Below are positions 7,113 to 30,874 of a DNA stretch of 34,387 nt, one piece after another. A program made the translations under genes and the position numbers. The DNA is from Gammaproteobacteria bacterium (GTDB lineage Bacteria > Pseudomonadota > Gammaproteobacteria > JAKDMP01): NCBI GenBank assembly GCA_030452225.1, contig JAKDMP010000005.1:1-34387 (forward strand). Direction: 5' to 3'. Position 1 is the stretch's first letter. Each line of letters starts with the position of its first letter. The notes under the pieces were generated by a model. That model searched no databases. It saw only the letters and a program-made list of their open reading frames with translations, and had not been told where the DNA came from.

Positions 7113-7778
7113 ATGGCGCTCGAGATCGAGATCCTCCCCAACGCCGCGGCCGTCGCCGAGCGTGGCGCGCAGATCGTCGCGCAGCGCGCGCGGGCGGCCG
7201 TGGCCGCCCACGGCCGGTTCAACTTCGCCGTCAGCGGCGGGCGAACCCCTTGGGCCATGTTCGCCTGCCTCGCCGGGAAGATGCCTTGGGAGAAGGTAAC
7301 GATCTTCCAGGTTGACGAGCGGATCGCCCCCGACGGCGATCCCGATCGCAACCTCACTCACCTGCGCGCGAGCCTCGCGCCCGCGGGCGCGGTCGAAATC
7401 CGCGCGATGCCGGTCGCAGCACACGAGCTCGACGCCGCGGCGGCCGAGTATGCGGCAACGCTTCCCGACGCGCTCGACCTCGTCCATCTCGGGCTCGGGC
7501 CGGACGGCCACACGGCCTCACTCGTTCCCGGTGACCCGGTGCTCGACGTCGCGGATCGTGACGTCGCGCTAACGCGCCCGTACCAGGGACACCAGCGCAT
7601 GACGCTCACCTTCCCCGCTTTGAACCGCGCCCGCGGCGTCCTCTGGCTCGTCACGGGCAAAGACAAGGTCGAGGCGCTGCGGCGTCTGCGTGCGGGCGAC
7701 AGCTCGATCCCCGGCGGGCGGATATCGAGCGAGCACGCGATCGTCGTGGCGGACGTGGCGGCCGCGGGCTCCAAATGA
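7113..7778 (+). CDS. pgl: 6-phosphogluconolactonase
   Basis: Hydrolyses 6-phosphogluconolactone, the product of Zwf, to 6-phosphogluconate, the substrate of Gnd. At 221 aa it has the normal length for the NagB/DevB family. Motifs include FAVSGGRTPWAMF for phosphate binding, FQVDERIAPDGDPDRN, the signature HLGLGPDGHTASLVPGD, and LTFPALNRARG near the C-terminus. The ATG is 4 nt after the gnd stop with only a weak ribosome site, consistent with re-initiation by terminating ribosomes. The TGA overlaps the ATG of cyoA (ATGA) although the two genes have unrelated functions and different codon style; see the finding on the cyo block. Confidence 0.94.
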   Translation: MALEIEILPNAAAVAERGAQIVAQRARAAVAAHGRFNFAVSGGRTPWAMFACLAGKMPWEKVTIFQVDERIAPDGDPDRNLTHLRASLAPAGAVEIRAMPVAAHELDAAAAEYAATLPDALDLVHLGLGPDGHTASLVPGDPVLDVADRDVALTRPYQGHQRMTLTFPALNRARGVLWLVTGKDKVEALRRLRAGDSSIPGGRISSEHAIVVADVAAAGSK

Positions 7779-8782
7779 CTAGCCGGTTGCGCCAAGCACG
7801 CCCGCCCTATGTCGGCGTGGCCATATTGTCTAGCACACTGCTGCTGCTCAGCGGATGCGCCGAGAGCGGCGTCTATCTGAGCTTTCTCAACCCGCAAGGA
7901 CCCATTGCCGCCGCCCAGCGCTGGCACCTCATCGAGGTGGTGGTGCTGCTCGGGGTGTTCGTGGCGCTACCCATATTTGTGCTCCTGCCGCTGCTGGTGT
8001 GGCGCTATCGCTATGGCGCGAAATCGCCGCGCTACACGCCCAAATGGCAGGATTACCTACCACTGGAAGTCATGGTCTGGGCGGGTCCAATCGCCATCAT
8101 CTGTGTGCTGGGCTTTCTGGTCTGGCACTACACGCACGCGCTGGACCCCTATAAGCCGATCGCACCCCACGGGCGGCCTTTGCAAGTGCAGGCGATCGGC
8201 TACGACTGGAAGTGGCTCTTTATCTACCCGGACCAAGGTATCGCAACCGTTGGCGTGCTGGCGATTCCGGTGGAACAGCCGGTTGCCATGCGTTTGACAT
8301 CGGCCACGGTCATGCAATCCCTGCTGATTCCCGCGCTGGCCGGCCAGATCTACGCCATGGGCGGCATGGTCACGCAGCTCCACCTCAAGGCCACGAAACC
8401 GGGACGCTCGCTCGGTGAGAACACCATGTACAACGGGAACGGATTCCACCACCAGAAGTTCACCGCGCTCGCTATGCCGCCCGAGGAATTTAAAGCGTGG
8501 GTTAGGAAAGTCCGAGCGAGCGGCGTTGCGCTGGATGCCCGCGCCTACAAGGCGCTCTCGCAGCGCGGCACCGTGGCGGAGCTGGTCGCTGCCCTGCCGC
8601 GGGCCTCGCACGAGGGCAACATTTATCTGACGCAGGTGAGCGCTGCCCTGTTTCCCGCGGTCGTCGAGGCGACCATGACCGGTACTCCTACCGCGCTGGG
8701 CCATGTCTTGGTGGCTCCGGCAGGATTGCCGGCGCCTGTAGTCCGCAAGACCGCCGCATCGTCAATGGAAAATGCGCCATGA
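7775..8782 (+). CDS. cyoA: cytochrome o-type quinol oxidase subunit II
   Basis: Subunit II of a heme-copper quinol oxidase, 335 aa. The N-terminus is a lipoprotein signal with lipobox LLSGC and the modified cysteine at residue 28, followed by two transmembrane segments (around VVLLGVFVALPIFVLLPL and VWAGPIAIICVLGFLVW). The periplasmic cupredoxin domain follows, with GYDWKWLFIYP and SLLIPALAGQIYAMGGM, typical of CyoA. The CuA-binding Cys-x3-Cys-x3-His of cytochrome c oxidases is absent where expected (GFHHQKFTALA), so the donor should be quinol. The ATG start overlaps the pgl stop. It is the first of four ATGA-coupled genes. Confidence 0.94.
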   Translation: MTSRLRQARPPYVGVAILSSTLLLLSGCAESGVYLSFLNPQGPIAAAQRWHLIEVVVLLGVFVALPIFVLLPLLVWRYRYGAKSPRYTPKWQDYLPLEVMVWAGPIAIICVLGFLVWHYTHALDPYKPIAPHGRPLQVQAIGYDWKWLFIYPDQGIATVGVLAIPVEQPVAMRLTSATVMQSLLIPALAGQIYAMGGMVTQLHLKATKPGRSLGENTMYNGNGFHHQKFTALAMPPEEFKAWVRKVRASGVALDARAYKALSQRGTVAELVAALPRASHEGNIYLTQVSAALFPAVVEATMTGTPTALGHVLVAPAGLPAPVVRKTAASSMENAP

Positions 8783-10890
8783 ATGCCGCCGCCATCATTG
8801 AACAACCGCTGGGGCGCTTGGGGATGGATTCACTGCCGTTCTGGGAGATGCTGCAGCACCCCACGGAGGAGAACCTGATCAACGGCTTCATCGGGGGAGG
8901 CGCGGCATGCGTGGTCGTAATCGGGATCGTGGTTGTCTGCGCGCTGATCACTTTCTTCGGCAAATGGCGCGCACTGTGGTCCGAGTGGCTGACCAGCCCC
9001 GATCACAAGAAGATCGGCATCATGTACGTCGTGGTGGCCTTGGTGATGCTGGCCCGGGCCGTGATCGAAGCGATACTGATGCGGTTGCAGCAGGCGGTCG
9101 GGCTGGGTGGCGGCTTTCTCGCGCCCGATCATTTTGCGCAATTGTTCAGTACTCACGGCACGATCATGATCTTTTTCATGGCCATGCCGTTTCTCATCGG
9201 CGTCATCAATTACGTGATGCCGCTGCAGATCGGTGCGCGCGACGTTTCCTTCCCCGTGCTCAATTCCATAAGCCTGGGATTGACCGCGGCCGCCGCGATG
9301 CTGGTGATGGTTTCACTGGTCATCGGCCAGTTCTCCACCGGTGGCTGGTTCGGCTACCCGCCCTATACCGAGACGGCTTTCACCCCCGATGTCGGACCGG
9401 ATTACTGGATCTGGGCGCTTACGCTGTCGTCGGTGGGGACGACGTTGACCGGCATCAATTTCGCCGTAACCATCTACAAGGAGCGCGCACCGGGCATGAC
9501 GTTGATGCGGATGCCGTTGTTCACATGGACCGCGCTATGCACCAGCATCCTGATGATCTTCGCGATGCCGCCTCTGACCGTCGCCACGGCGCAACTGGCG
9601 CTGGACCGTTACCTGGGCTTTCACTACTTCACCAATGCCCTGGGCGGCAACATGATGAATTTCATGAATCTGTTCTGGCTGTTCGGCCATCCGGAAGTCT
9701 ACATCCTAATACTGCCGTCATTCGGGATCTACTCCGAGGTCGTTGCGACTTTTTCCGGCAAGGCGTTGTTTGGCTACCGCTCGCTGGTGCTGGCTACCAT
9801 GACCATTGCCGTGCTGTCATTCACCGTGTGGGTGCACCACTTTTTCACCATGGGCCAGAGCGCGAACATCAACGCGGTATTCGGCATTGCCTCCATGCTG
9901 ATCGGCATTCCCACGGGAGTGAAGATCTATGAATGGATGGCGACGATGTACCGTGGCCGGGTGCGTCTGACCGTCCCAATGGTGTATGCGATCGGTTTCA
10001 TCCTGCTGTTCGTGCTCGGCGGCATCACCGGGATTATTCTGGCCAACCCCGCGATCGACTATCAGGTGCACAACACGGTGTTTCTGGTGGCGCACTTCCA
10101 CAACGTCGCCATCCCTGGTGTGCTCTTTGGCCTGCTCGCCGGCTACCATTTCTGGTTTCCCAAGGTGTTCGGCTTTCGCCTTGACGAACGCTGGGGGATG
10201 ATCTCGGCGTTGTGCTGGCTGTTTGGATTCATGCTCGCGTTTTTCCCGCTTTATGCCCTCGGCCTGATGGGGCTGCCACGGCGCACCGTCGCCTACTTCA
10301 ATCCTGCTTACCAGCCGCTGGAGATCGTGGCCTTCCTTGGTGCACTGCTAATTGGCTGTGCGCTCCTTGCGCTCCTAATCCAGGGCTGGGTTTCAATCAA
10401 GCATCGCAACGAGAACCGGGTGTTCGCGGGCGATCCCTGGGACGGGCGCAGCCTGGAATGGGCGGTCTCGGCGCCGCCGCCCGAATACAACTTTCCGGTC
10501 TTGCCCGTGGTCAATGATGCGGACGCTTTCGCGGCCGCCAAGGAGTTCGGCGTGGCCTATCAGCAACCCGACGAGTTTGTGGACATCAAGCTCCCCAGGA
10601 ACAGCGCCATGGGCCCGGTGCTTGGCGGCCTCGGTTTCGTCATGGCATTCGGGCTGGTCTGGCATATCTGGTGGCTGGTGATCGTTTGCGCCCTCGGCAC
10701 ACTGGCGGCGATCATCGTGCGCGGATTCGCGCGCGATACGGTGCAAACCGTGCCGGCGAGCGTCGTCAAAGAGGAGCACGGGCGCTGGCTTGATGCTGTC
10801 CAGCATGCCGCCGCGATCTCACGCGCCGCTGAATGCGATCCCGCCAATGAAGGCCTTGCCGAGCAGGGCGCCGCGGGGGCCACGTCATGA
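8779..10890 (+). CDS. cyoB: cytochrome o-type quinol oxidase subunit I
   Basis: The catalytic, proton-pumping subunit of the heme-copper oxidase, 703 aa and strongly hydrophobic. Heme and CuB ligand motifs are intact: FSTHGTIMIFF (low-spin heme His), GHPEVYILILPSFG (CuB His and the cross-linked Tyr), VWVHHFFTMG (CuB His pair) and LVAHFHNVAIPG (heme His pair). The D-channel aspartate region (MPLQIGARDVSFPVLN) and the K-channel lysine (IPTGVKIYEWMATM) are present, so this is an A-type proton-pumping oxidase. The start overlaps the cyoA stop (ATGA). It is slightly longer than E. coli CyoB because of its C-terminal region. Confidence 0.96.
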   Translation: MNAAAIIEQPLGRLGMDSLPFWEMLQHPTEENLINGFIGGGAACVVVIGIVVVCALITFFGKWRALWSEWLTSPDHKKIGIMYVVVALVMLARAVIEAILMRLQQAVGLGGGFLAPDHFAQLFSTHGTIMIFFMAMPFLIGVINYVMPLQIGARDVSFPVLNSISLGLTAAAAMLVMVSLVIGQFSTGGWFGYPPYTETAFTPDVGPDYWIWALTLSSVGTTLTGINFAVTIYKERAPGMTLMRMPLFTWTALCTSILMIFAMPPLTVATAQLALDRYLGFHYFTNALGGNMMNFMNLFWLFGHPEVYILILPSFGIYSEVVATFSGKALFGYRSLVLATMTIAVLSFTVWVHHFFTMGQSANINAVFGIASMLIGIPTGVKIYEWMATMYRGRVRLTVPMVYAIGFILLFVLGGITGIILANPAIDYQVHNTVFLVAHFHNVAIPGVLFGLLAGYHFWFPKVFGFRLDERWGMISALCWLFGFMLAFFPLYALGLMGLPRRTVAYFNPAYQPLEIVAFLGALLIGCALLALLIQGWVSIKHRNENRVFAGDPWDGRSLEWAVSAPPPEYNFPVLPVVNDADAFAAAKEFGVAYQQPDEFVDIKLPRNSAMGPVLGGLGFVMAFGLVWHIWWLVIVCALGTLAAIIVRGFARDTVQTVPASVVKEEHGRWLDAVQHAAAISRAAECDPANEGLAEQGAAGATS

Positions 10891-11510
10891 GCTACGAAAC
10901 CTTCCGGTATCCCGGGCTGAACCTCGGCCGCGCGCACCCCGAAGCGCACGATGCCGCGGAGACCCTGATGTTTGGTTTCTGGGTCTTCATGATGAGCGAT
11001 GCCATTTTGTTCGGCATGGTGTTCGGGACGTACGTGATACAGTTGGATGCCACCGCCGGTGGACCCGGGCCGCGCGACATCTACGACATCAAAAGCGTCC
11101 TCATCCAAACCATGCTGCTATTGGCTAGCAGCTTTACCTTCGGTATGGCATCGCTGTCGAATAAACACAAGGGCAGCCCGCCGCGCCTGCTTGCCTGGCT
11201 GGTAGTGACCTTGTTGCTGGGCGTGGGTTTCCTGGTTTTCGAAGTTCGCGATTTCCTGTCGATGTTTGACATGGGCGCTGTTCCGAGCCGCAGCGGCTTT
11301 CTCTCCGCGTTTTTCGACCTGGTGCCACTGCATGGCCTGCATGTCACCTGTGCCTGCATTTGGCTGATTTGCCTAGTCGGTCAGATCGCCCGTTACGGCC
11401 TCGACACCGACGTCAAGTTGAGCGTTATGCGACTCGCACTGTTCTGGCACTTTTTGGACATCATCTGGATTGCAATTTTCTCGGTGGTTTATTTGGCGGG
11501 GCTGGCATGA
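10887..11510 (+). CDS. cyoC: cytochrome o-type quinol oxidase subunit III
   Basis: Subunit III of the quinol oxidase (COX3 family), 207 aa with five predicted membrane helices, starting with LMFGFWVFMMSDAILFGMVF and ending with FWHFLDIIWIAIFSVVYL, a typical subunit III C-terminus. It stabilises the catalytic subunit. The ATG at 10887 overlaps the cyoB stop and its TGA overlaps the cyoD ATG, so all four subunits are translationally coupled. Confidence 0.94.
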   Translation: MSYETFRYPGLNLGRAHPEAHDAAETLMFGFWVFMMSDAILFGMVFGTYVIQLDATAGGPGPRDIYDIKSVLIQTMLLLASSFTFGMASLSNKHKGSPPRLLAWLVVTLLLGVGFLVFEVRDFLSMFDMGAVPSRSGFLSAFFDLVPLHGLHVTCACIWLICLVGQIARYGLDTDVKLSVMRLALFWHFLDIIWIAIFSVVYLAGLA

Positions 11511-13161: not shown

Positions 13162-14547
13162 ATGAGCGTCCCATCCAGCTGCGACATCTTTGTGATCTTC
13201 GGTATCACCGGCGATCTCGCGAAGGTCATGACGTTTCGATCGCTCTACCGCCTCGAACGGCGCAACCTCCTCGACTGCCCGATCGTCGGTGTCGCCGTGG
13301 ACGACTGGAGCGTCGACCAACTCATCCAGCGCGCCCGTGAGTCGATCATCAGCAGCGGGGAGCCGCTCGACGAAGCGGTGCTCGCTCGGCTGGCAAAGCG
13401 ACTCTCATATGTGCCGGGTGATTTCGCGGACGATGCCACCTACGAGCGCGTGGGTGCCGCGATCAAAGGCTTCGCACGGCCCGTCTTCTACCTCGAGATC
13501 CCGCCCGCGCTGTTCGCGATGGTCATCAAGGGCCTCGCTACCGCGGGGCTCACGAAGAGCGCGCACATCGTCGTCGAGAAGCCCTTCGGGCACGACCTCG
13601 CATCGGCACGCGCGCTCGCCGCGGAGCTGCACCAGTACGTCGACGAGTCGCAACTCCTGCGCATCGATCACTTCCTCGGCAAGATGGGCCTGGAGGAAAT
13701 CCTCTACCTGCGATTCGGCAACACCCTGCTCGAGCCGGTCTGGAACCGCAACTATGTCAAGAGCGTCCAGATCACGATGGCCGAGGACTTCGGTGTCGCG
13801 GATCGCGGCCGCTTCTACGACCCCGTCGGCGCGCTGCGCGACGTCGTCGTCAACCACCTCATGCAGGTCGTGGCGGCCGCCGCGATGGAGGCGCCCGCCG
13901 GAGCCGAGGCTGAGACCATCAAGGACTCGCAACTCGCCGTGTTCCGCTCCGTGCTCACGGCTGATCCCGCCCACTACGTCCGCGGCCAGTACGAGGGCTA
14001 CCGCACGATCGACGGCGTCGCACCCGATTCCAGCACCGAGACCTTCGCCGCCCTGCGTCTCGACATCGAGAACTGGCGCTGGTCCGGTGTGCCCTTCTAC
14101 ATCCGCACCGGGAAGTGCCTGCCGGTCACCCAGACTGAGCTCCGGCTCGTGTTGAAGAGCCCGCCTCGCCTTGGCCTCGGGCTCCGAGGCCCCGCTTCCG
14201 AGCCCGACGAGCTCGTGATCAGGCTGGATCCGGCGACCGGCATCCGCTTCCGACTCGAGGCCCGACTGGCGAAGAGCCGTGAGGCGCGGCCTATCACGCT
14301 CGACATGACGTTCGCCGAGGAAGGCGGCGAGGGGGCCACGCCCTATGAGGTCTTGCTGCACGCGGCCATGGTCGGTGAGACCACGCGCTTCACCCGCCAA
14401 GATGGCGTCGAAGAGGCATGGAGGATCATGCAGCCCCTCCTCGACTCACCACCCACGGTCCATCCCTACCCCCAGGGCTCGTGGGGCCCGAAGGAAGCGA
14501 GTGAGTTGGTGGCGGGGTATGGCCGCTGGCACGATCCGTGGCTCTAA
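13162..14547 (+). CDS. zwf: glucose-6-phosphate 1-dehydrogenase
   Basis: Catalyses the first oxidative pentose phosphate step, glucose 6-phosphate to 6-phosphogluconolactone. At 461 aa it is somewhat shorter than the usual 480-500. The N-terminal nucleotide-binding motif is FGITGDLAK, the substrate motif [10 protein letters not shown] is present, and the active site reads [14 protein letters not shown] with the catalytic His. [20 protein letters not shown] and [12 protein letters not shown] follow as expected. The active-site signature is slightly unusual (DHFLGKM instead of DHYLGK followed by E, Q or K). A weak GGAG lies 12 nt before the ATG. Codon style resembles tkt-pgl rather than the intervening cyo genes, suggesting it once adjoined pgl. 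Confidence 0.93.
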
Positions 14548-14678
14548 GCAATAAAGGGCGTTTCTGCTTCGCAAAGCGCGTTGGCCATGCTGTTCCGCGG
14601 GAGCGCGGCGGCTCGTGACGGTTATCGGGTCGGCACTTGATGATAGCAGCCGGGCGGCATGGGCCACGGGAGAGATTG

Positions 14679-19442: not shown

Positions 19443-21248
19443 TCATTGCTCAGCGTGATGCTGCGCCGGACCATTGCCCTCCTCCAGGCTCAGATGGTGC
19501 GCGGTGTTGATGAGCCCGACGTGCGAGAATGCCTGCGGAAAATTGCCCAGCAGGCGCTTTTCCCGCGGGTCATATTCTTCTGCCAGAAGACCAACGTCGT
19601 TGCGGATCGCAAGCAGACGATGGAACAGCTCCCGTGCTTCGTCTTTGCGCCCCATGAGCGCCAGATTATCGGCGAGCCAGAACGAGCAGAGAATGAACGC
19701 GCCCTCGCCACCGGCCAGCCCATCGTCGCCTTCCTCCAGCGAATAGCGCATGACGAAGCCGTCGTTCATTAGGTTTTTCTGAATGGCCTCGACGGTGCTT
19801 TTGATGCGCGGATCCTCGGCCGGCAGAAACCCCACCAGCGGCATCAACAGTAAGGCCGCATCGAGTGGCTCGCCGCCGTAGTACTGCACGAACGTATTGC
19901 GCTTCTTGCTAAACCCCTTTTCGCAGACCTCGTCATGGACGGTCTTGCGCAGCGCGCGCCAGTGCGCGGCGTCGCCTTCAAGGCCGAAGTTCTCGATGGC
20001 CTTGACCGCGCGGTCGAACGCCGTCCACGCCATCACCTTGCCATGAGTGAAATCGCGCGGCGGACCGCGCATCTCCCAGATCCCTGAGCCTTCGTCTGGC
20101 CAGTGGACTTCGAGATACTTCAGCAGCTCGAGCTGCAAGAGCCAAGTATCGTCGTCCGGCTGAATGCCGTGCCGCCTCGCGGTGTACAGAGCGTCGATGA
20201 CCTCGCCGTAAATGTCGATCTGGACCTGAGTGTAGGCGCCGTTGCCTATGCGCACCGGGCGGCTGCCCTCATAGCCGCTCAGCCAGTCGAGCTCGAGCTC
20301 GGGCAGCCGGCGCTCGCCGCCGATGCCATACATGATCTGCACTCTTCTCGGATCGCCGGCCACCGCGCGTAGCAGCCATTCACGCCACCGGCGGGCTTTC
20401 TCGTGGTAGCCCGATAGCAATAAGGCCTGCAGGGTAAAGGCCGCATCGCGCAGCCAGGTGTAGCGATAGTCCCAATTGCGGGTGCCGCCGATCAGCTCCG
20501 GCAGCGAGGTGGTCGGCGCGGCCACTATGCCGCCGGTCTCGCTGTCGGTCAGCGCTTTCAGCGTGATCAGCGAGCGCACCACCGGCTCGCGGTACTCGCC
20601 CTGCGTCTTGCAGTGCGCGCTCCAATCGCGCCACCAGCGCTGCGCCTGCTCGAGCGCCGCGCCGGCGTCAAGCACCGCGGGCGCATCGTGCCAGGACAGG
20701 TACCAGTCCAGCACGCAGGGCACGCGCTCACCGGCCGAAATGGTGAACTCGGCCACTGTGGTCTTGTCGCGGCCGTGCAGCTCCAGCGGTGTGTGCAGTT
20801 GTAGCGCATCCGGGCCAGCGATCGCCTGCAGCCCAAAATCCTGGTGGCGCACCCATGGTGCGACTCTGCCGTAGCCGAAGCGGAAGATTATCTCCATTTG
20901 CATAGCCACGCGCCCTTGCCGGCCCTCGACGATGCGCACTACGTCAATGACGTCATTGCCGTCGCGCGGCAGCGGCATGAAATCGATCAGTGCTACCGTG
21001 CCGGAATCCGTCTCGAATAAGGTTTCCAGGATCAAGGTTTCGTCGCGGTAGCGGCGCGTGATCTTCTTGGTTGCTTCTTTAGGCGCAATCAGCCAGCGGC
21101 CATTGTCACGCTCGCCGATCAGTGCGGCGAAACAGGCGTCGGAGTCGAAGCGCGGCAGACACAACCAGTCGATCGAGCCGTCGCGGCCGACCAGCGCGGC
21201 GCTGCGCATGTTGCCGATCAGCGCGTAGTCTTCAATACGTTGGCTCAT
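19443..21248 (-). CDS. glycoside hydrolase family 15 (glucoamylase/trehalase type)
   Basis: A 601-aa GH15 enzyme that removes glucose from alpha-glucans or splits trehalose by inversion. The N-terminal trehalase-like beta domain (DYALIGNMRSAALVGRDGSI) precedes the (alpha/alpha)6 barrel, which has the hallmark RYTWLRDAAFTLQALL. The general-base region is LLAEEYDPREKRLLGNFPQA, with the glutamate pair near residue 557, and the C-terminus is SHVGLINTAHHL. There is no signal peptide, so it acts on internal substrate such as glycogen or trehalose. The track starts at 21299, but the ATG at 21248 is preceded by AAAGGA and begins at the conserved MSQRIEDYALIG. A decayed paralogous tail lies at 12929-13022. 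Confidence 0.92.
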   Translation of the reverse strand: MSQRIEDYALIGNMRSAALVGRDGSIDWLCLPRFDSDACFAALIGERDNGRWLIAPKEATKKITRRYRDETLILETLFETDSGTVALIDFMPLPRDGNDVIDVVRIVEGRQGRVAMQMEIIFRFGYGRVAPWVRHQDFGLQAIAGPDALQLHTPLELHGRDKTTVAEFTISAGERVPCVLDWYLSWHDAPAVLDAGAALEQAQRWWRDWSAHCKTQGEYREPVVRSLITLKALTDSETGGIVAAPTTSLPELIGGTRNWDYRYTWLRDAAFTLQALLLSGYHEKARRWREWLLRAVAGDPRRVQIMYGIGGERRLPELELDWLSGYEGSRPVRIGNGAYTQVQIDIYGEVIDALYTARRHGIQPDDDTWLLQLELLKYLEVHWPDEGSGIWEMRGPPRDFTHGKVMAWTAFDRAVKAIENFGLEGDAAHWRALRKTVHDEVCEKGFSKKRNTFVQYYGGEPLDAALLLMPLVGFLPAEDPRIKSTVEAIQKNLMNDGFVMRYSLEEGDDGLAGGEGAFILCSFWLADNLALMGRKDEARELFHRLLAIRNDVGLLAEEYDPREKRLLGNFPQAFSHVGLINTAHHLSLEEGNGPAQHHAEQ

Positions 21249-21348
21249 TGGTCTTGTCCTTTGTACTTGCGGGACGCGTCGGGCGAAGCGAGGTATCACC
21301 TTTGCGCCGGATGTTGCCAGTCTTCATCCGCGCAAGGTCATTTTCAAG

Positions 21349-21529: not shown

Positions 21530-22618
21530 ATGTCAACAGGAGATGTTGTGATAAAGGAAACGGCGTCCATAGCCAACGTCTTCGGAGAGACACCCGACGG
21601 GCGCGCCGCGGCCTTGTACGTGCTCCAGAACAAGCACTTGCGCACGCAGATTACAGATTACGGTGGCCGCATCGTCTCGCTGGAGGTCCCGCACCGAGGT
21701 GGTGCGCGTAGGCACGTCGCGTTGGGCTTCGATCGGGTCGCGGATTACGTCAGAGCCGGAAAACCGTTTGGTGCGTTGCTTGGGCGCACTTCGAACCGCA
21801 TCGCCGGCGGGCGTTTCTTGCTGGATGGGCGCAGCTACGATCTCGTGCAGAACGAAGGCGACAATACGCTGCATGGCGGCGGGGTCTTCGGCAACGTGTT
21901 CTGGCTCGTATCCGAAGCAAGCGCCACGCAGCTCGTTCTCACACATGTCAGCCCCGACGGCGATCAGGGCTTTCCTGGCGAGCTCACGGTGCGCGCGGCC
22001 TACCGGCTTGACGGCACGACACTGTGGCTGGAGCTCGAGGCACAAACGAGCAAGCCTACAGTCGTCAGTCTGAGCGCGCATCCCTATTTCAATCTTGGCG
22101 GCCTGCAAGCCGGGAGTGTGCTCGATCATGAGCTCACCATCGCCGCCGAGACTTACCTGCCGACCGATGCCGCACAGATTCCCACGGGCGAGCGCCGTTC
22201 GGTCGCTGGAACGCCGTTCGATTTCCGCAAGCCGATGCCCGCCGCCGCGCGCATCCGTGATCCGGATCCGCAGCTTCTCTATGGCAAGGGCTATGACCAT
22301 TATTTCATTATCGATGCAGCCAAGGGAGGCACGCCAAGTTTCGCCGCACGCGCCAGAGACCCCGCAACCGGATGCACCCTGGATGTTTACACGACACAGC
22401 CCGGTCTGCAGTTCTACACTGGAAACAATCTCGATGCGACCATTGCCGGCCGTGGTGGCATTTACCGTCAATCCGCCGGTTTCGCGTTCGAGCCGCAAGG
22501 TTTTCCCAACGCGCCGAACCAAAAGGAATTCCCAAGCACGATCTTGCGGCCCGGCGAAACCTATCGACACAGCATCGGTTATGCTTTCAGCCTCACCGAG
22601 CCGGAGCCCGGAAGCTAA
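21530..22618 (+). CDS. galM: aldose 1-epimerase (mutarotase)
   Basis: Interconverts alpha and beta anomers of glucose, galactose or related aldoses; 362 aa. Visible family motifs are ITDYGGRIVSLEVP, GRTSNRIAGGRFLLDG, NTLHGG with the first catalytic His, SLSAHPYFNLGG with the second, GYDHYF, and LQFYTGNNLD. The catalytic Glu lies in FEPQGFPNAPNQ. No signal peptide is seen. The ATG at 21530 lacks a clear ribosome site; a GTG at 21548 is preceded by AGGAG at five bases and may be the true start. It is divergent from GH15 and convergent with the GMC gene (2 bp between stops). It would supply the correct anomer to glucokinase or to a sugar dehydrogenase. Confidence 0.92.
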   Translation: MSTGDVVIKETASIANVFGETPDGRAAALYVLQNKHLRTQITDYGGRIVSLEVPHRGGARRHVALGFDRVADYVRAGKPFGALLGRTSNRIAGGRFLLDGRSYDLVQNEGDNTLHGGGVFGNVFWLVSEASATQLVLTHVSPDGDQGFPGELTVRAAYRLDGTTLWLELEAQTSKPTVVSLSAHPYFNLGGLQAGSVLDHELTIAAETYLPTDAAQIPTGERRSVAGTPFDFRKPMPAAARIRDPDPQLLYGKGYDHYFIIDAAKGGTPSFAARARDPATGCTLDVYTTQPGLQFYTGNNLDATIAGRGGIYRQSAGFAFEPQGFPNAPNQKEFPSTILRPGETYRHSIGYAFSLTEPEPGS

Positions 22619-22620: not shown

Positions 22621-24267
22621 TCAAAGGCTGCCTTGCGCCGCCATCGCCCGAATTCGATCCGCGGTGCGGCAGGCGATTGCCTGAATAGTGAGCGACGGGT
22701 TGACCCCGCCGACGGTCGGGAACACCGAGCCGTCACAGACCCACAAATTGGGGATATCCCAACTGCGGCAATCGGCATTGACGACGCTGGTGCGTGGATC
22801 GTCGCCCATGCGCGCGGTGCCGTTCAGATGACAGGTGTCGTCACTTTCGGTCCATATGTCGCGCGCACCGACTACCGAGAGGCTTTGCGACATGAAATTC
22901 AGCGCGTGCTTAACCAGTGCCTTATCGTTGTCGCACAGCGAGTAAGTCACCCGCGCGATCGGCAAGCCGTATCGATCCTTCTCGTCGGCCAGTGCTACGC
23001 GGTTGCGTTCCTGCGGCAACACTTCGCCGACGATCTTCAGACCCGCCTGGTGGTTGTACTTTTCCATTGCGCGCAGCAGCGCATCGCCCCACAGCCCGCG
23101 ATTACCCGCGAGGGAGGAAACCCAAGCCCGCGGCAGCGGCCCCTGACTCATGTACGCGTAGCCGCCGAAGAAATCCTTGCCGGTGTCCGTATAGTTCCAG
23201 TGCTCGGTCACGGCCAGCGACGGCGGCCCTTTGTACCAACGAATCTCGTCTTCCATCACACCCCAGGCCGCCTGGTTGGTTTGCGCCATCAGATTTTTGC
23301 CCACCAGACCGGAGCTATTCGCGAGCCCGTCCGGAAACTGCGAATTGGCCGAGCTCAATAATAGCCGCGGCGTTTCGATCGCATAGCCTGCGACGACGAC
23401 GTTACGGGCGCGCTGGAAGCGCCATTGGCCTTCGCGATAGTAGTGCACCCCCGTGACGTAACCGGCGTCGTTGGTTTCGATCCGGCCTGCCATTGCCAGA
23501 TCCCGGATTTCGGCGCCGGCCTTCACCGCGCGTGGAATCCAGGTAATCAGCGCGCTCTGCTTGGCGTTGGTCGAGCATCCACTTACGCAGAAGCCGCGAT
23601 AGACGCAAGGAGGCGAGCGCCCGCGCGGGGCGGAGACCGTGGCGAGCGGCGTCTCCGACCAGGGAATGCCCATTGCTTCACAGCCTTTGGCGAGCACCAG
23701 AGCGGCGGCATTAAGCTCATGCGCGCGGTAGGGGTAGCGCGGCCGCGGTGGCCCCCACGGATAATTCACCGGCCCTGCGATCTTTAGCGCCTGTTCGACT
23801 TCGGTGTAATAGCGCCACATCTCGCGCCAATCGAGCGGCCAATCAGCGCCGTAACCAAGGAGGCTGCGCGACTTGAGCCACTCAGGGCGAAAGCGCAGCG
23901 ACACCATCGCGAAATGCACGGTCGAGCCGCCTATGGCCTTGCCACTGTTGTTGCTGCCGAGCTTGAGCGGATTGTCCCCGTCGCAGATGCGCTCGTCGGT
24001 CCAGAAAAGTTTTTCCTGGTGTGTTTCATCCGAAGCGAATTCCTCGAGCGGGCGCCACCAGGCGCCGGCGTCGAAGCCGACGACCGAGAAGCCCGCCTCC
24101 GCCAGCTTGCAGGCCAGCGTCCCGCCGCCGGCGCCCGTGCCGACGATGGCGAAATCGACTTCGTCATTCTCGCCATATTGGCGCATCGGCATCCAGCCGC
24201 CGACGCGCAGGGGGTCAGGCGCGCGCCCATCCTTGCCGCGTGGGCTGTGCAGCGCCTCATCCAACAC
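22621..24267 (-). CDS. GMC-family FAD dehydrogenase, large subunit of a sugar/aldonate dehydrogenase
   Basis: A 548-aa flavoprotein of the glucose-methanol-choline family. The FAD motif is FAIVGTGAGGGTLACKLAEA, the catalytic His region is HLNGTARMGDDP, and the C-terminal signature is VGGVNPSLTIQAIA. At residues 221, 227 and 231 three cysteines form C-x5-C-x3-C (CVYRGFCVSGC). That spacing matches, from memory, the cysteines holding a [3Fe-4S] cluster in the catalytic subunit of Burkholderia FAD-dependent glucose dehydrogenase. It has no signal peptide. The GTG start at 24267 overlaps the end of the subunit-3-like gene by 11 bp, so the two are co-translated. Likely substrates are glucose, gluconate or another aldose, with quinone or an Fe-S route as acceptor (inference). 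Confidence 0.88.
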   Translation of the reverse strand: MLDEALHSPRGKDGRAPDPLRVGGWMPMRQYGENDEVDFAIVGTGAGGGTLACKLAEAGFSVVGFDAGAWWRPLEEFASDETHQEKLFWTDERICDGDNPLKLGSNNSGKAIGGSTVHFAMVSLRFRPEWLKSRSLLGYGADWPLDWREMWRYYTEVEQALKIAGPVNYPWGPPRPRYPYRAHELNAAALVLAKGCEAMGIPWSETPLATVSAPRGRSPPCVYRGFCVSGCSTNAKQSALITWIPRAVKAGAEIRDLAMAGRIETNDAGYVTGVHYYREGQWRFQRARNVVVAGYAIETPRLLLSSANSQFPDGLANSSGLVGKNLMAQTNQAAWGVMEDEIRWYKGPPSLAVTEHWNYTDTGKDFFGGYAYMSQGPLPRAWVSSLAGNRGLWGDALLRAMEKYNHQAGLKIVGEVLPQERNRVALADEKDRYGLPIARVTYSLCDNDKALVKHALNFMSQSLSVVGARDIWTESDDTCHLNGTARMGDDPRTSVVNADCRSWDIPNLWVCDGSVFPTVGGVNPSLTIQAIACRTADRIRAMAAQGSL

Positions 24268-24898
24268 GTTCGTTGGCCTTGCGTGCCGCAGCCTCGTGGC
24301 CGGGCTTCGCTTCCACCGCTTCCCAGGAATCGCGCCGATTGAAATTCATGCGCACGTAGCCGCGCGGACTCGCCGGGCCGCCGAAACCGATCTCGTTCCA
24401 CGAGCTCGAGTGGGAATAGTAGGCAGCGAGGATGTCATGGGCGAGGCGCTCGCTGAAGAAGGTGTGAGCCGGCATACCATTCCACTCCGGTCCACTCAGT
24501 TCGCCGTTTTGCATGGCTTTCAGCAGCACGTCTTGCTTGACCGCGGCGATGGCGTGGAAAGGCGCGCCATGGCTGGCGCGGGCCGCGGCATCCAGGGCGG
24601 CGAGCCCGCGCTGCCACGCTTGCTGCATCTTCGGCATGCTGGCCTGGCGGTAGCCGTCGCGCTCGTCATTCGTCATCTTGCGGTCGACCAGCGCCGCGAT
24701 CGGAACTGGGGCACGGTCTTTGGGCTGCGGCACGATGCGATCGCAGATTGCGGTCAACGTCTCCCATTCCTGCATAGTGAAAAAACGCGGCTCGTTCGGA
24801 ATCGACAATCGTGCATCGATCACTCGGCGGGTAGGTTCGTTCCACGACGGCGTGGCGCGCTTTGCGAGGACGTCGTAGCCGGGATAGCGCTCAGGCAT
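24257..24898 (-). CDS. gluconate 2-dehydrogenase subunit 3 family protein
   Basis: A 213-aa small subunit that accompanies GMC dehydrogenases such as gluconate 2-dehydrogenase and FAD-dependent glucose dehydrogenase (gamma subunit). The family start FFTMQEWETLTAICDRIVPQ, the VDRKM segment and the C-terminal HPHSSSWNEIGFGGPASPRG-like region (here SHSSSWNEIGFGGPASPRGY) are recognisable. The track begins at 25045, but the ATG at 24898 has AGGA eight bases upstream and overlaps the preceding stop by 8 bp. Known gamma subunits often carry a Tat signal that exports the large subunit; none is visible here, nor any hydrophobic N-terminus, so this complex may stay in the cytoplasm (inference). Confidence 0.85.
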   Translation of the reverse strand: MPERYPGYDVLAKRATPSWNEPTRRVIDARLSIPNEPRFFTMQEWETLTAICDRIVPQPKDRAPVPIAALVDRKMTNDERDGYRQASMPKMQQAWQRGLAALDAAARASHGAPFHAIAAVKQDVLLKAMQNGELSGPEWNGMPAHTFFSERLAHDILAAYYSHSSSWNEIGFGGPASPRGYVRMNFNRRDSWEAVEAKPGHEAAARKANERVG

Positions 24899-25907
24899 CG
24901 GGGTGTTCCTCCAACAACCCGAGCGCGGCGAGTCCAGCGAGCGCAAGGCCGGTAAAGCTCGGCGGCGCGGGGATCGGCGGCCCGTTGAGCACGTTCTGGC
25001 TCCAGTTGCGCCAACCGCCCATGTTGCGCTGGACGCCATAGGCATGGAAGCCGGCGCCCGCGAAGCCGAGGAGCGCCGTGAGGCGCAGCCACCAGCGGGT
25101 GAGGCGGCGCGGCCGGCGCGGGCGACTCAGCGCGGTTTCACCCAGCAGCGCGCCGGCCAGCGGCGGTACAGTTACTGGCGCGAACATGAAGGGGTTGTGA
25201 TAGGCGCCGCGAAAGTGCAGCAATCCCGCCTCGCCAGCCGTCGCGAGTAGGCCGACGCCGCTCAGTGCCGCGAGCGCGCGGCCGGCGGGCAGCCCAAAGA
25301 CCTTTGGTATCTTGTCGGATTCATTGTCGCGCAAGCGCTCCGAATAATAGCCGAGCAATCCGGATAACGCGACAGCCCCCGGCGCACCGAGCGGCGAGCC
25401 ATAGAACAGGTTCTGCCATGAGAAGCCGCCCGGACGCTTGGCGATGTTATAGATATGAAAGCCGGTGCCGGCGATACCCGTCAGCGCCGCCGCCAGGTAG
25501 GTTGCGTCGCGGACTCCATGCGCGATGGGGCGTTTGTCGCGGGTGCCGTGCGCACTCACCGCCAACATCAACGCCGAGACGATCAACGGCGTGTACATAG
25601 CCTTGTTCTGGAACGAGCCGCGGTAATGCTCAACCGCGCTGTCCAATAATGTGGACGTCCCGAGTAAGCCCGCGGCGCGATTTAAACGCCGCGCGGCCTT
25701 GACCTGCGGCGGCTCATCGACCCGCAAGGGGCTGCGCTTCTGACGCGCATGCGTTCTCGCGCCGGCGAGCGTCTCCCGGCCGGTTTGCGGTGTAAAACCC
25801 CGTCGAAGCAACGCAACTCCAAGGCCAAGCGCGATGGCACCAACGGCGCCACCCACTAGTTGACGGGTCGCCGCCGTAGATAGATCCCCAGCGTTGTTCG
25901 CTGCCAT
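24891..25907 (-). CDS. unrecognised polytopic membrane protein with internal duplication
   Basis: A 338-aa integral membrane protein and the first gene of the GMC operon, ending 8 bp inside the next gene. One N-terminal helix (about residues 17-35) is followed by two homologous halves, roughly residues 80-190 and 217-333. Each half has an H(Y/F)RG motif (His94, His231), then N-x-x-M(Y/F)-x-P, then GFHxY (His151, His288), then GG(F/W)...N(L/V)(F/L)xG(S/P)P. Both His-His distances are exactly 57 residues. I do not recognise the family. The operon suggests a membrane anchor or quinone-side electron acceptor for the GMC dehydrogenase; paired histidines could bind heme b, but this is speculation. 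The start is an ATG with weak upstream GGAAA. Confidence 0.75.
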   Translation of the reverse strand: MAANNAGDLSTAATRQLVGGAVGAIALGLGVALLRRGFTPQTGRETLAGARTHARQKRSPLRVDEPPQVKAARRLNRAAGLLGTSTLLDSAVEHYRGSFQNKAMYTPLIVSALMLAVSAHGTRDKRPIAHGVRDATYLAAALTGIAGTGFHIYNIAKRPGGFSWQNLFYGSPLGAPGAVALSGLLGYYSERLRDNESDKIPKVFGLPAGRALAALSGVGLLATAGEAGLLHFRGAYHNPFMFAPVTVPPLAGALLGETALSRPRRPRRLTRWWLRLTALLGFAGAGFHAYGVQRNMGGWRNWSQNVLNGPPIPAPPSFTGLALAGLAALGLLEEHPDA

Positions 25908-26376: not shown

Positions 26377-28170
26377 ATGGGTGAATTGGTCAGCGATTTC
26401 CTGCTTAAGCGGTTATCCGAATGGGGCGTCAAGCGCATCTTCGGCTTTCCCGGGGATGGCATCAACGGCATTCTTGGTGCGCTCGGCCGCGCCGGCGACC
26501 GCTTCGACTTCGTGCAGGTACGCCATGAGGAAATGGCCGGGTTCATGGCCTGTGCCCATGCCAAGTTTACCGGCGAGGTGGGCGTTTGCCTGGTGACCTC
26601 CGGTCCCGGCGCGATCCATGTGCTGAACGGTCTCTACGACGCCAAAAAAGACCACCAGCCGGTGCTCGCAATCATCGGGCAGCAAGCCCAGAGCGCGCTC
26701 GGTGGCGATTATCAGCAGGAGGTCGATCTGACCACGCTGTTCAAGGACGTCGCGCACGAATACGTGCATATGGCGACCAGCCCGGCGCAGGTGCGCCATC
26801 TCATCGATCGCGCGCTGCGTATTGCCAAGGACCAGCGTACCGTCACGGCTCTGGTGTTTCCGAGCAACCTGCAGGAAATGCCGGCGGTGGAGGCGCCGCC
26901 GCGCGCACACGGCACCGTTCACTCCGGTGTCGGCTATACGCCGCCGCGTATCGTGCCGGAAGAGGATGATCTCAGGCGCGCCGCGCTGGTGCTGAACGAG
27001 GGCAAGAAGGTGGCGATGCTGGTCGGCGCCGGCGCCCTGAACGCAACCGACGAGGTGATCGAGACGGCCGAGCTGCTGGGTGCCGGAGTCGCTAAGGCGC
27101 TGCTCGGCCGCGCCGCGGTGCCGGATGACCTGCCTTATGTGACCGGCTCCATCGGCCTGCTCGGCACCAATCCGAGCTGGGAGCTAATGACCGGCTGCGA
27201 CACGTTGCTGATGGTTGGCTCGGCGTTCCCATATTCCGAATTTTTGCCCAAGGAAGGCCAGGCCCGCGGCGTGCAGATCGATATCGACGGGCGCATGGTC
27301 AGCATGCGCTACCCGATGGAAGTGAACTTGGTCGGCGACAGTGCCAAGACGCTGCGCGCGCTGATCCCGCACTTAAACCGTAAGACCGACCTTTCTTGGC
27401 AGGACCACATCAAGGAGGAAGTCGCGCACTGGTGGAAGATACTTGAAGCGCGCGCGATGACGAGCGCCAACCCGATCAACCCACAGCGCGTGTTCTGGGA
27501 GCTCTCGTCGCGGCTGCCGGACAACTGCATCCTGACCTGCGACGCCGGCTCGGCAGCCAACTGGTACGCGCGCGACCTCAAGCTGCGCCGCGGCATGATG
27601 GCCTCGCTCTCCGGCGGACTGGCCACGATGGGGCCGGGCGTGCCGTATGCGATCGCGGCCAAGTTTGCGTATCCTGATCGTGCCGTTATCGCGATGGTCG
27701 GCGACGGCGCGATGCAAATGAACGGCATCAACGAGCTGATTACGATTGCGAACTATTGGAAGCGCTGGAGCGATCCGCGCCTGGTCATCCTGGTGCTCAA
27801 TAACCGCGACCTGAACCAGGTGACCTGGGAGCAGCGGGTGATGGCCGGCGATCCAAAATACGAAGCCTCCCAGAACGTTCCCGATTTTCCGTATGCGAGC
27901 TACGCCGAGCTGATCGGCCTGCGCGGCATCAAGGTCGAGGAGCCGGACGCAGTCGGCGGCGCGTGGGACCGTGCGCTCAGCGCCGACCGCCCGGTGGTGC
28001 TGGAAGCCGTTACCGACCCGGACGTGCCGCCAATGCCGCCGCATATCAAGCTGGAGCAGGCGAAGGCGTACATGTCCGCCCTGCTGCACGGCGATCCCGA
28101 CGCGATGGGCATCATCAAAGCCTCGGCTAAGGACTTCCTCAAGACCTTCGTGCCGACCGTAAAAGGCTGA
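26377..28170 (+). CDS. pyruvate-oxidase-like thiamine diphosphate enzyme
   Basis: A 597-aa ThDP-dependent enzyme of the pyruvate oxidase/acetolactate synthase superfamily. The PYR domain has FGFPGDGINGI and VRHEEMAGFMA with the activating glutamate; the middle domain has AMLVGAGAL and a nucleotide-binding core; the PP domain has the ThDP motif VGDGAMQMNGINEL ending at LNNRDLNQV. The closest type by eye is quinone-linked pyruvate dehydrogenase (PoxB), which decarboxylates pyruvate to acetate and reduces quinone, because EVDLTTLFKDVA resembles that family. A 2-keto-acid decarboxylase role is an alternative. GGAGG lies nine bases before the ATG. The next gene follows after 3 nt, so the two are co-transcribed. 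Confidence 0.85.
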   Translation: MGELVSDFLLKRLSEWGVKRIFGFPGDGINGILGALGRAGDRFDFVQVRHEEMAGFMACAHAKFTGEVGVCLVTSGPGAIHVLNGLYDAKKDHQPVLAIIGQQAQSALGGDYQQEVDLTTLFKDVAHEYVHMATSPAQVRHLIDRALRIAKDQRTVTALVFPSNLQEMPAVEAPPRAHGTVHSGVGYTPPRIVPEEDDLRRAALVLNEGKKVAMLVGAGALNATDEVIETAELLGAGVAKALLGRAAVPDDLPYVTGSIGLLGTNPSWELMTGCDTLLMVGSAFPYSEFLPKEGQARGVQIDIDGRMVSMRYPMEVNLVGDSAKTLRALIPHLNRKTDLSWQDHIKEEVAHWWKILEARAMTSANPINPQRVFWELSSRLPDNCILTCDAGSAANWYARDLKLRRGMMASLSGGLATMGPGVPYAIAAKFAYPDRAVIAMVGDGAMQMNGINELITIANYWKRWSDPRLVILVLNNRDLNQVTWEQRVMAGDPKYEASQNVPDFPYASYAELIGLRGIKVEEPDAVGGAWDRALSADRPVVLEAVTDPDVPPMPPHIKLEQAKAYMSALLHGDPDAMGIIKASAKDFLKTFVPTVKG

Positions 28171-28173: not shown

Positions 28174-29292
28174 GTGGCCGAGCGCACGGCGAGTCCTGGG
28201 AGGGCGGCAGCACCCATCGAGACGATCGAAGTCTCCGCCTACGAGATTCCGACCGATGCGCCAGAGTCGGACGGCACCTTGGAATGGGATTCGACCACCA
28301 TGGTGCTGGTCGAGGTAAGCGCCGGCGGCAAAACCGGGGTCGGTTACACGTATGGTCATCAGGCGATCGCGACACTGATTCGCGACAAGCTCTCTGGTGT
28401 CATCAGCGGTCGTGATGCGATGGATGTCGGCGACTGCTGGCTGACGCTGGTCAAATCGATCCGCAATCTCGGCCGCCCCGGTATCTGTTCGATGGCGATC
28501 GCCGCGCTCGACATCGCGCTCTGGGATTTGAAGGCGCGCTTGCTCGATCGACCGCTGGTGGGGCTGCTGGGTGCATTTCAGGCGATGGTGCCGGTGTATG
28601 GCAGCGGCGGCTTCACCTCGTATTCCGAGGCGCAGCTGCGCAATCAGCTAGCCGGCTGGGTCGATGCCGGTATCCCGCGTGTCAAGATGAAGATCGGTCG
28701 CGAGCCGGAGCGCGACCCAGCCCGAATGAAATCTGCGCGCGCCGCGATCGGCTCGGCCACCGAGCTCTACGTCGACGCGAACGGCGCCTATGACCGCAAA
28801 CAGGCGCTCGCGATGGCCGGGGTCTTCCTCGAGCACGGCGTTACTTGGTACGAGGAGCCGGTAACCTCCGATGATCTCGCCGGCCTGCGTTTGCTGCGCG
28901 ATCGGGCGCCCGCGATCACTGAGATCGCGGCCGGCGAATACGGCTATGACCTGCCTTATTTCCGCGCCATGCTCGAAGCCGGCGCAGTCGATGTGCTGCA
29001 GGCCGACATCACCCGTTGCGCCGGCCTGACCGGCTTTCTTGCCGTCGCCGCGCTTGCCGAGGCGCATGAGGTGCCGTTATCCGCGCACTGCGCGCCCGCC
29101 CTGCACCTGCACCCGTGCTGCGCAATCAAGCCGCTGCGCCATCTGGAATATTTCTACGATCACGTGCGCATCGAGCGCATGTTGTTCGATGGCACGCAGG
29201 AGCCGGATGGTGGAGCGCTGCGCCCGGATTTGTCGCAGCCCGGCTTGGGACTCGAATTCAAACGTGTGGACGCGCAGGCGTATCGGTTGTGA
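28174..29292 (+). CDS. enolase-superfamily sugar-acid dehydratase/racemase (mandelate racemase subgroup)
   Basis: A 372-aa enolase-superfamily member. The N-terminal capping domain (TIEVSAYEIPTDAP) is followed by the barrel with the KxK base motif (RVKMKIG), metal ligands in YVDANGAY, WYEEPV and AAGEYGYD, an aspartate in VDVLQADITRCAG, and the histidine region SAHCAPALHLHP. This arrangement is typical of the mandelate racemase subgroup, which includes many acid-sugar dehydratases. The GTG start is 3 nt after the ThDP gene, with AAAGG upstream. Given the nearby GMC dehydrogenase, an aldonate dehydratase is my preferred reading. The pairing with a ThDP enzyme also recalls mandelate racemase with benzoylformate decarboxylase, so the substrate remains open. 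Confidence 0.85.
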   Translation: MAERTASPGRAAAPIETIEVSAYEIPTDAPESDGTLEWDSTTMVLVEVSAGGKTGVGYTYGHQAIATLIRDKLSGVISGRDAMDVGDCWLTLVKSIRNLGRPGICSMAIAALDIALWDLKARLLDRPLVGLLGAFQAMVPVYGSGGFTSYSEAQLRNQLAGWVDAGIPRVKMKIGREPERDPARMKSARAAIGSATELYVDANGAYDRKQALAMAGVFLEHGVTWYEEPVTSDDLAGLRLLRDRAPAITEIAAGEYGYDLPYFRAMLEAGAVDVLQADITRCAGLTGFLAVAALAEAHEVPLSAHCAPALHLHPCCAIKPLRHLEYFYDHVRIERMLFDGTQEPDGGALRPDLSQPGLGLEFKRVDAQAYRL

Positions 29293-29474: not shown

Positions 29475-29851
29475 GGGTATCGATTCGGGTGCGTCGCGGT
29501 GCGCTGTGTTGGTGTTGGCAAATGCCGCGGCGAAGGCGTCACGATGTGTCCGAGCTACATGGTCACGCGCGAGGAGAAACACGCGGGCGCGCGCGGCTGC
29601 TGTTCGAGATGATGCAAGACGACGTGCTGACCGACGGCTGGCGTTCCGAGGCGGTTTAGGTATCGCTCGATTTGTGCCTCTCCTGCAAGGGTTGCAAGAG
29701 CGACTGTCCGGTCAATGTCAATATGGCGGCCTACAAGGCGGAATTCCTGTCGCATTACTACAAAGGCTGGCTTGAAGCCGATCTCGGCTTGCGCGTTCGG
29801 CCTGATCGAGCGCTGATCGCGGCTCGCCTTGCCTGCGGTGGAGTAAATGGC
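29475..29851 (+). pseudogene. remnant of an FAD/Fe-S oxidoreductase, Fe-S domain only
   Basis: An internal piece of the large FAD-linked oxidase plus ferredoxin-type fusion proteins (GlcD/GlpC-like) remains in broken form. It runs RCVGVGKCRGEGVTMCPSYM, a frameshift near 29580, then LLFEMMQDDVLTDGWRSEAV, an in-frame TAG at about 29657, then the four-cysteine cluster motif CLSCKGCKSDCPVNV and AAYKAEFLSHYYKG. A further frame change leaves AFGLIER, a stop and SRLAL. The N-terminal FAD domain and the C-terminal domains are missing. The ORF track joins its last 60 residues to the following SDR as one 400-aa protein; that join is an artefact. Confidence 0.75.
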
Positions 29852-30874
29852 ATGGACGTATACGAAAAGTCCGAAGTCGTCGTCATCACCGGCGCAAGCG
29901 CCGGCGTTGGCCGCGCGACGGCACGTGCGTTTGCCAAGCACGGTGCGCACATCGGCCTGATTGCACGCGATACCGCTCGGCTGGAAGCGGCGCGCGGTGA
30001 AGTCGAAGCTCTGGGCGGCAAGGCGCTCGCCGTCAGTGTCGACGTGGCCGACGCAGCCGCGCTCGAACGCGCGGCTGAGACGATCGAGAGCAACCTCGGG
30101 GAGATCGACATCTGGATCAATGCCGCGATGACAACCATTGTCGCACCGCTCGCCGAGATCGAGCCAGGCGAATTCAAGCGCGTCTCAGAAGTCACCTATC
30201 TCGGCAACGTTTACGGCACAATGGCCGCGCTGAAGCGCATGCTGCCGCGCAACCGCGGCACGATCGTTCAGGTGAGCTCCGCACTCGCCTACCATTCAGT
30301 GCCGTTACAGGCGCCGTACTGCGGCGCCAAGCACGCGATCAACGGCTACACCGACTCGCTGCGCGCCGAGCTGCTGCACCGCGGCAGTCATGTCCACGTC
30401 ACCGCCGTCGATTTGCCGGGGCTCAATACGCCGCAGTTCGACTGGGCCCTTAACAAGATGCCGCAGCGCCTGCGTCCAGTCGCGCCCGTCTACCAGCCCG
30501 AGGTTGCCGCGCGCGCGATCGTCTGGGCCGCGCATCACCGCCGGGCGCGGCTGTACGTCGGGCTGTCGGCGTTGTTGATGATTTGGGCCGATAAGTTTGC
30601 ACCGGGGCTGCTCGATCGCTATATGGCCCGCAGCGCCGTTAGTGGCCAGCAAACGGCTGAGCCCGCCAATCCCGACCAGCCGAACAACCTTTGGCAGCCG
30701 GGTTCCGGCGATCATGGCGCGCGCGGCCGCTTCAGCGCTGGAGCCTACGAGCACAGCGTCCAGCTCTGGGCGACCACGCACCGCGGTTGGCTTGCGCTTG
30801 CCGGTGCCGCGCTCGCCGCTGGTGCCATCTGCGCGAGCGCCGCCCGGCGGCGGCGAAGACATGGACTACCGTAA
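29852..30874 (+). CDS. SDR family oxidoreductase with C-terminal membrane segment
   Basis: A 340-aa short-chain dehydrogenase. The cofactor motif is ITGASAGVGRATARAFAKHG, the active site has QVSSALAY and PYCGAKHAINGY (Tyr-x3-Lys), and a conserved C-terminal extension (NNLWQPGSGDHGARGRF, then WATTHRGWL) leads into a hydrophobic segment (ALAGAALAAGAICASAA) that probably anchors it in the membrane. The track start at 29672 lies in the Fe-S remnant; the correct start is the ATG at 29852, preceded by GGTGGAG. The substrate is unknown. It is co-directional with the ThDP enzyme and dehydratase but separated from them by the broken genes. Confidence 0.88.
   Translation: MDVYEKSEVVVITGASAGVGRATARAFAKHGAHIGLIARDTARLEAARGEVEALGGKALAVSVDVADAAALERAAETIESNLGEIDIWINAAMTTIVAPLAEIEPGEFKRVSEVTYLGNVYGTMAALKRMLPRNRGTIVQVSSALAYHSVPLQAPYCGAKHAINGYTDSLRAELLHRGSHVHVTAVDLPGLNTPQFDWALNKMPQRLRPVAPVYQPEVAARAIVWAAHHRRARLYVGLSALLMIWADKFAPGLLDRYMARSAVSGQQTAEPANPDQPNNLWQPGSGDHGARGRFSAGAYEHSVQLWATTHRGWLALAGAALAAGAICASAARRRRRHGLP

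Follow-up and report, generated by a model that had tools for sequence, protein, structure and literature searches.

A conserved three-gene unit joins a GMC dehydrogenase to an unclassified, internally duplicated membrane protein

The MEM-SUB3-GMC genes

The 34,387-nucleotide contig JAKDMP010000005.1 of a gammaproteobacterial assembly (GCA_030452225.1), analysed here over its whole length and called the window below, carries on its minus strand three overlapping genes that code, in this order, for a polytopic membrane protein (MEM), a small subunit of the Gluconate_2-dh3 family (SUB3) and a flavin adenine dinucleotide (FAD) oxidoreductase of the GMC type (GMC). Their positions and principal features are the following.

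24891..25907, minus strand: MEM, polytopic membrane subunit, 338 amino acids, one variable N-terminal helix and eight further helices in an AlphaFold2 model
25317..25709, minus strand: first unit of four transmembrane helices (4-TM unit) of MEM, residues 67-197, with H94 (25626-25628) and H151 (25455-25457)
24894..25298, minus strand: second 4-TM unit of MEM, residues 204-338, with H231 (25215-25217) and H288 (25044-25046)
24257..24898, minus strand: SUB3, Gluconate_2-dh3 (PF13618) small subunit, 213 amino acids, ATG at 24898, without a twin-arginine translocation (Tat) signal
22621..24267, minus strand: GMC, FAD oxidoreductase large subunit, 548 amino acids, GTG start, catalytic His480/Asn523
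23575..23607, minus strand: Cys221/Cys227/Cys231 of GMC (C-x5-C-x3-C), aligned with the 3Fe-4S ligands Cys212/218/222 of the FAD-dependent glucose dehydrogenase (FAD-GDH) of B. cepacia (6a2u)

MEM and SUB3 overlap by 8 bp, SUB3 and GMC by 11 bp, and all three genes have the same GC content at third codon positions (0.77, versus 0.50-0.56 at second positions), a composition of the coding type. SUB3 is preceded by a GGAGGA ribosome-binding site, and we prefer its start at 24898 to that of a longer open reading frame (ORF) because the relatives keep the N-terminus MxxRYPGYDVLxKRxxPSWN. The protein matches PF13618 with E 1.1e-25 over positions 2-135 of the 135 of the Pfam profile, and GMC matches both PF00732 and PF05199 (GMC_oxred_N and GMC_oxred_C). 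No CxxCH motif occurs in MEM, SUB3 or GMC, nor in 13 other window proteins checked, and an Rfam scan of the window gave no match. An initial annotation of this DNA had described the three ORFs, their overlaps and the absence of CxxCH exactly as we find them. It overlooked a wider five-gene cluster, which includes a thiamine pyrophosphate (TPP) enzyme and a dehydratase, and the internal duplication of MEM with its four invariant histidines.

Glucose sensors make use of sugar dehydrogenases of the GMC/3Fe-4S group, which are known as enzymes that are exported and linked to cytochrome c. The window enzyme is related to them: the closest structures to GMC are PDB 6a2u (E 6e-66) and 7w2j (E 1e-61), FAD-GDH and fructose dehydrogenase, and GMC shares with the alpha-beta-gamma FAD-GDH of B. 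cepacia (BcGDH) and with FdhSCL the His/Asn pair, the C-x5-C-x3-C ligands of the 3Fe-4S cluster and a PF13618 small subunit encoded in the same operon. The catalytic pair and the three cysteines are kept in 22/22 sequences compared. In B. cepacia FAD-GDH, Cys212/218/222 are the 3Fe-4S ligands (PMC6719666), and a heme c in the third subunit, 7-8 A away, accepts the electrons of the cluster (PMC9727119). Unlike BcGDH and FdhSCL, however, the window operon has no triheme cytochrome c subunit, MEM standing in third place, and its small subunit lacks the Tat signal that serves for hitchhiker export. Cys213 of BcGDH, which forms an inter-subunit disulfide, is Val/Ala here; we dropped this loss as an argument for a cytoplasmic location, because exported relatives do not conserve the disulfide either (PMC6719666). 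Likewise, the spacing of the Fe-S cysteines was abandoned as a hallmark of the MEM-linked branch, being also found in about one third of other PF13618 loci.

Conservation and distribution of the unit

When genome contigs were scanned with MEM, 140 relatives came up; we retrieved the best 80, which belong mainly to Acetobacteraceae, Bradyrhizobium, Burkholderia, Rhizobiaceae and soil metagenome-assembled genomes (MAGs). Of the 78 loci that have 0.9 kb or more of downstream sequence, 77 have SUB3 next to MEM and on its strand. GMC in turn comes after SUB3 wherever the sequence is long enough, in 75 loci out of 75; this count includes locus L015, set aside by a distance filter, yet with a GMC match beginning 52 bp past SUB3. 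There is one clear exception, L008, in which MEM is followed by unrelated genes without SUB3-GMC. These look like DNA methyltransferase and restriction-type genes (8774-12993 of that locus, counted with MEM), pointing to an insertion or a MAG chimera.

The same association is seen in plasmids, where a comparison by hand shows that good SUB3 matches and MEM matches fall in one and the same set of 26 records. These span Pseudomonadota, Deinococcota, Acidobacteriota and Actinomycetota, with Deinococcus, Granulicella and Frondihabitans among them, and the remaining matches are weak or partial SUB3 hits in Sphingobium, Methylobacterium and Deinococcus gobiensis. An Embleya plasmid (L151, about 5958-6135) holds a 59-residue remnant of a MEM unit in an unrelated-looking reading frame, with no SUB3 or GMC nearby. 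Across 13 whole genomes the MEM unit is confined to one gene, that of the MEM-SUB3-GMC cluster, and among 399 genomes sampled from the phylum MEM turned up four further times, in each case together with SUB3 and GMC. The family is rare in the window's own class (1/274 genomes). The genome from which the window comes has a second complete copy on another contig (C44, about 3000-6319 of L150), with identities to the window copy of 70% for MEM and 87% for GMC. The order is repeated in almost every relative and in this second copy, so that chance can be dismissed as its explanation.

The initial annotation had proposed a stoichiometric complex, and this gains support from the conserved order, from the overlaps and from Deinococcus D7000, where SUB3 and GMC are fused in one chain that adjoins a single 4-TM unit; we infer that MEM, SUB3 and GMC form a physical complex. 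The possibility that MEM homologues would mostly lie away from SUB3/GMC genes is not borne out, the exceptions being L008 and the Embleya remnant.

The gene order is not wholly new, being already in the literature for Asaia bogorensis. A "pyruvate oxidase operon" of this species (Asbog_02184-02187) was described in 2015 as coding for a PoxB-like enzyme, a protein with "seven transmembrane helices", a PF13618 protein and a GMC protein, and its expression resembles that of the quinol oxidase cyo-2 (PMC4596401). The authors considered the pyruvate oxidase unique to Asaia, left its location open and did not analyse the membrane protein (PMC4596401). We liken Asbog_02185 to MEM by gene order alone, presuming homology. 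A TPP enzyme, a polytopic protein, a PF13618 protein and a GMC protein form one cluster in Asaia as they do here, and in this order in most of our loci; unlike in Asaia, the TPP gene of the window adjoins MEM but is divergent. No other paper on an operon of the MEM type was found in the literature searched, and as far as this literature goes the wide distribution of the gene order is new.

A duplicated membrane protein with invariant histidines

When residues 67-197 of MEM are aligned with residues 204-338, the score is 131, against 32 +/- 5.6 for shuffled sequences, revealing an internal duplication. The AlphaFold2 model of the full protein (predicted local distance difference test, pLDDT, 84) has four helices per unit in addition to the variable N-terminal one, and a model of unit 2 on its own reaches a pLDDT of 88.9. 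Each unit contains two histidines 57 residues apart (H94 and H151 in the first, H231 and H288 in the second), which are conserved at 100% in repeat 1, in repeat 2 and in single-unit proteins; a Pro, several Gly, a GG, an N and an AP are conserved across them too. Four arginines (Arg96, Arg233, Arg294 and Arg300) are also invariant, and there are Gly-Pro-Pro loops. Within a unit, one histidine lies on helix 1 and the other on helix 3, near same-side ends and at about equal depth, forming a diagonal pair, and the loops on this face are by far the best-conserved portion of the protein. Frondihabitans and two Deinococcus strains encode, at the same position, a single-unit protein of about 156 amino acids. 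In one of these loci (L099, Deinococcus D7000), a VKOR-like protein of 132 amino acids (5030-5428; E 4e-5, below the Pfam cut-off) is encoded between a short-chain dehydrogenase/reductase (SDR) gene and the single-unit MEM gene, and Deinococcus strain AJ005 has an ORF of similar size.

The initial annotation called MEM uncharacterised, and a search with the 338-residue protein gave indeed no known family. Nothing exceeded the Pfam cut-off for the window protein, 40 members or diverged members, and neither NCBIfam nor PDB sequence profiles yielded a relative; Foldseek found nothing significant for the full model in PDB and BFVD or for the unit model in PDB. Its best neighbours (a metalloprotein, 3d19, copper storage proteins, CydDC and p22phox) had E > 0.05 and low TM-scores, and were not used. 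MEM appears therefore as an unclassified, duplicated family with invariant histidines, tied to SUB3/GMC and new as far as the literature searched. A protein so far annotated just as "hypothetical" thereby acquires a name and a role that can be tested.

A possible route from the enzyme to the quinone pool

A search of the genome (the assembly is 97% complete) turned up no triheme cytochrome c and no GMC gene beyond those of the two copies; its cytochrome c hits were limited to a two-domain (di-heme) and a one-domain (mono-heme) protein. The alternative that a cytochrome partner or a Tat signal for this complex is encoded elsewhere thus finds no support on either count, no Tat signal being present in the family either. 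Beside the enzyme genes, no candidate acceptor other than MEM was found. Because across several phyla it occurs almost only beside SUB3/GMC, we think that MEM probably feeds the electrons of the enzyme to the respiratory chain, by a new mechanism.

The reading that we favour, and hold to be slightly more likely than not, is that of a membrane-bound aldose:quinone oxidoreductase, with MEM as an electron-accepting subunit of a new family. GMC would oxidise an aldose, glucose most likely, at its FAD by means of the His/Asn pair; electrons would pass from FAD to the 3Fe-4S cluster at the GMC surface and from there to MEM, instead of to a heme c as in FAD-GDH, and then from MEM to ubiquinone, the resulting quinol feeding a quinol oxidase. 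SUB3 would have been retained as a chaperone or interface subunit that no longer exports the complex, and the lactone or acid product would enter a linked pathway through the dehydratase and the TPP enzyme. The enzyme itself is probably cytoplasmic, and the linked enzymes look cytoplasmic as well. A widespread branch with a different and unclassified membrane subunit would represent a second way of wiring GMC sugar dehydrogenases to respiration.

We counted in favour of such an oxidoreductase the cyo-type quinol oxidase of the window, the cytochrome bd quinol oxidase located directly after the cluster in Burkholderia multivorans and the cyo-2-like expression of the probable Asaia counterpart. 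Several points weigh against it. The window quinol oxidase is 11 kb away from the unit, and MEM has no match to a cytochrome b family, in sequence or fold, that would support a heme. Both histidine pairs are on one face, so that they provide no path across the membrane, and this face, if periplasmic as its charges suggest, fits badly with a cytoplasmic GMC. Finally, the second genomic copy has neither TPP nor dehydratase neighbours (a HemC-like gene comes next), and the link with the pathway is therefore not obligatory.

What MEM would carry is a separate matter. The diagonal histidine pair of each 4-TM unit seems to be placed like the bis-His ligands of a b-type heme, and would be equally suited to a quinone or metal site. 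MEM is perhaps a b-type cytochrome: we consider tentatively, as a minority view, that a new family of these cytochromes arose by duplication of a one-heme 4-TM unit, still single in Deinococcus and Actinomycetota, with quinone directly reduced by a non-exported GMC enzyme and MEM replacing the periplasmic cytochrome c route. It would work like the anchors NrfD/PsrC, FrdC/SdhC, FdnI and cytochrome b in taking electrons from an Fe-S protein, and has two 4-TM units and paired histidines, but it is not a member of these families, with which it has no sequence, profile or Foldseek match.

The foremost alternative, for which we would give somewhat less than one chance in three, is a heme-free quinone-binding anchor in the style of NrfD/PsrC, in which the quinone sites, adjacent to the 3Fe-4S cluster, would be made up of the histidines, the arginines and the Gly-Pro-Pro loops. 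The two 4-TM units recall eight-helix anchors, the invariant histidines, the four invariant arginines and the conserved loops share one face, and MEM has no similarity to any heme protein; on the other hand, a bis-His heme would call for just such invariant histidines, on helices 1 and 3 and at about equal depth, and scans of Pfam and PDB found no NrfD/PsrC match for MEM in sequence or fold.

Rather unlikely, in our opinion, is a complex that is periplasmic as a whole, SUB3 and GMC being exported by an unrecognised route and docking on a conserved outer face of MEM. Lysine and arginine are more numerous on the variable face in 80/81 MEM proteins (mean 15.7 versus 7.9), which by the positive-inside rule places this face in the cytoplasm and the histidine face in the periplasm; net charge splits less clearly (54 versus 22), and several lysines and arginines on the conserved side are invariant, perhaps for functional reasons. 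Moreover, the characterised relatives with cytochrome c are all periplasmic (PMC6719666, PMC9727119), and this location was first preferred by the Asaia authors (PMC4596401). Against it, neither a Tat RR motif nor a Sec signal was found at the N-termini of SUB3 and GMC in the window and in about 75 related loci, or in the linked genes, whereas of 29 unrelated PF13618 loci about half readily show RR signals in a like check. The export of a folded FAD/Fe-S protein would require Tat, and the cluster partners lack signal peptides. The initial annotation was thus right about the missing Tat signal, and its cytoplasm-facing complex finds support in the lack of export signals, but not in the charge bias of MEM. 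More generally, its observation is confirmed and its interpretation partly supported.

It is improbable that MEM stands outside the enzyme altogether, as a transporter or a metal-binding membrane protein that is co-transcribed with it and serves the same pathway. Gene linkage alone cannot prove a complex, and the weak Foldseek neighbours include metal and copper proteins, none significant; yet MEM is linked far more tightly to SUB3/GMC than to the pathway genes, GMC has no alternative membrane partner and MEM matches no transporter family. Least credible is an operon for the oxidation of pyruvate (or a 2-oxo acid), with the PoxB-like TPP enzyme as main dehydrogenase and GMC, SUB3 and MEM as its accessory respiratory subunits: GMC is equipped with FAD, a catalytic pair and Fe-S ligands of its own, no TPP gene lies near the second copy, and the PoxB of E. 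coli needs no partner to reduce quinone. Only the frequency of the TPP gene, at times inserted between MEM and SUB3, and the annotation of the Asaia genome (PMC4596401) speak for it.

The wider cluster and its neighbours

Around the unit, the window contains the following genes.

26377..28170, plus strand: TPP enzyme (NCBIfam PRK08273, pyruvate-oxidase-like/PoxB-like), conserved cluster member, divergent here
28174..29292, plus strand: enolase-superfamily (MR_MLE) acid-sugar-dehydratase-like protein, conserved cluster member
29672..30874, plus strand: SDR oxidoreductase (PRK07109), frequent neighbour
21530..22618, plus strand: aldose 1-epimerase, convergent with GMC; also adjoins the Frondihabitans cluster
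19443..21299, minus strand: trehalase/glucoamylase-like hydrolase of glycoside hydrolase family 15 (GH15), without signal peptide, frequent neighbour
7775..11510, plus strand: cyo-type quinol oxidase subunits II, I and III, possible electron sink

The TPP enzyme is found in 65/81 loci and the enolase-superfamily protein in 63/81, counts in which many loci end at contig ends; both genes lie usually just upstream of MEM. In L044, L045, L055, L065, L069 and L081 the TPP gene is located between MEM and SUB3. Other recurrent neighbours among the 81 loci are GH15 (23), an SMP-30 lactonase (15) and an SDR, and taken together GH15, lactonase, dehydratase, TPP enzyme and SDR resemble a soluble pathway for sugar acids. 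MEM is thereby tied to a cluster whose pathway is not described in the literature searched; a literature search for a link to the general stress response (PhyR) found nothing.

Further away, genes running in one direction from 445 to 14547 code for transketolase, transaldolase, glucose-6-phosphate isomerase (PGI), a haloacid dehalogenase-type (HAD) phosphatase, 6-phosphogluconate dehydrogenase, 6-phosphogluconolactonase, the cyo-type oxidase and glucose-6-phosphate dehydrogenase (G6PD), so that oxidative pentose-phosphate genes are also within the window. Between G6PD and a major facilitator superfamily (MFS) transporter, an FAD protein resembling carotenoid desaturase/CrtO is encoded at 14637-16214.

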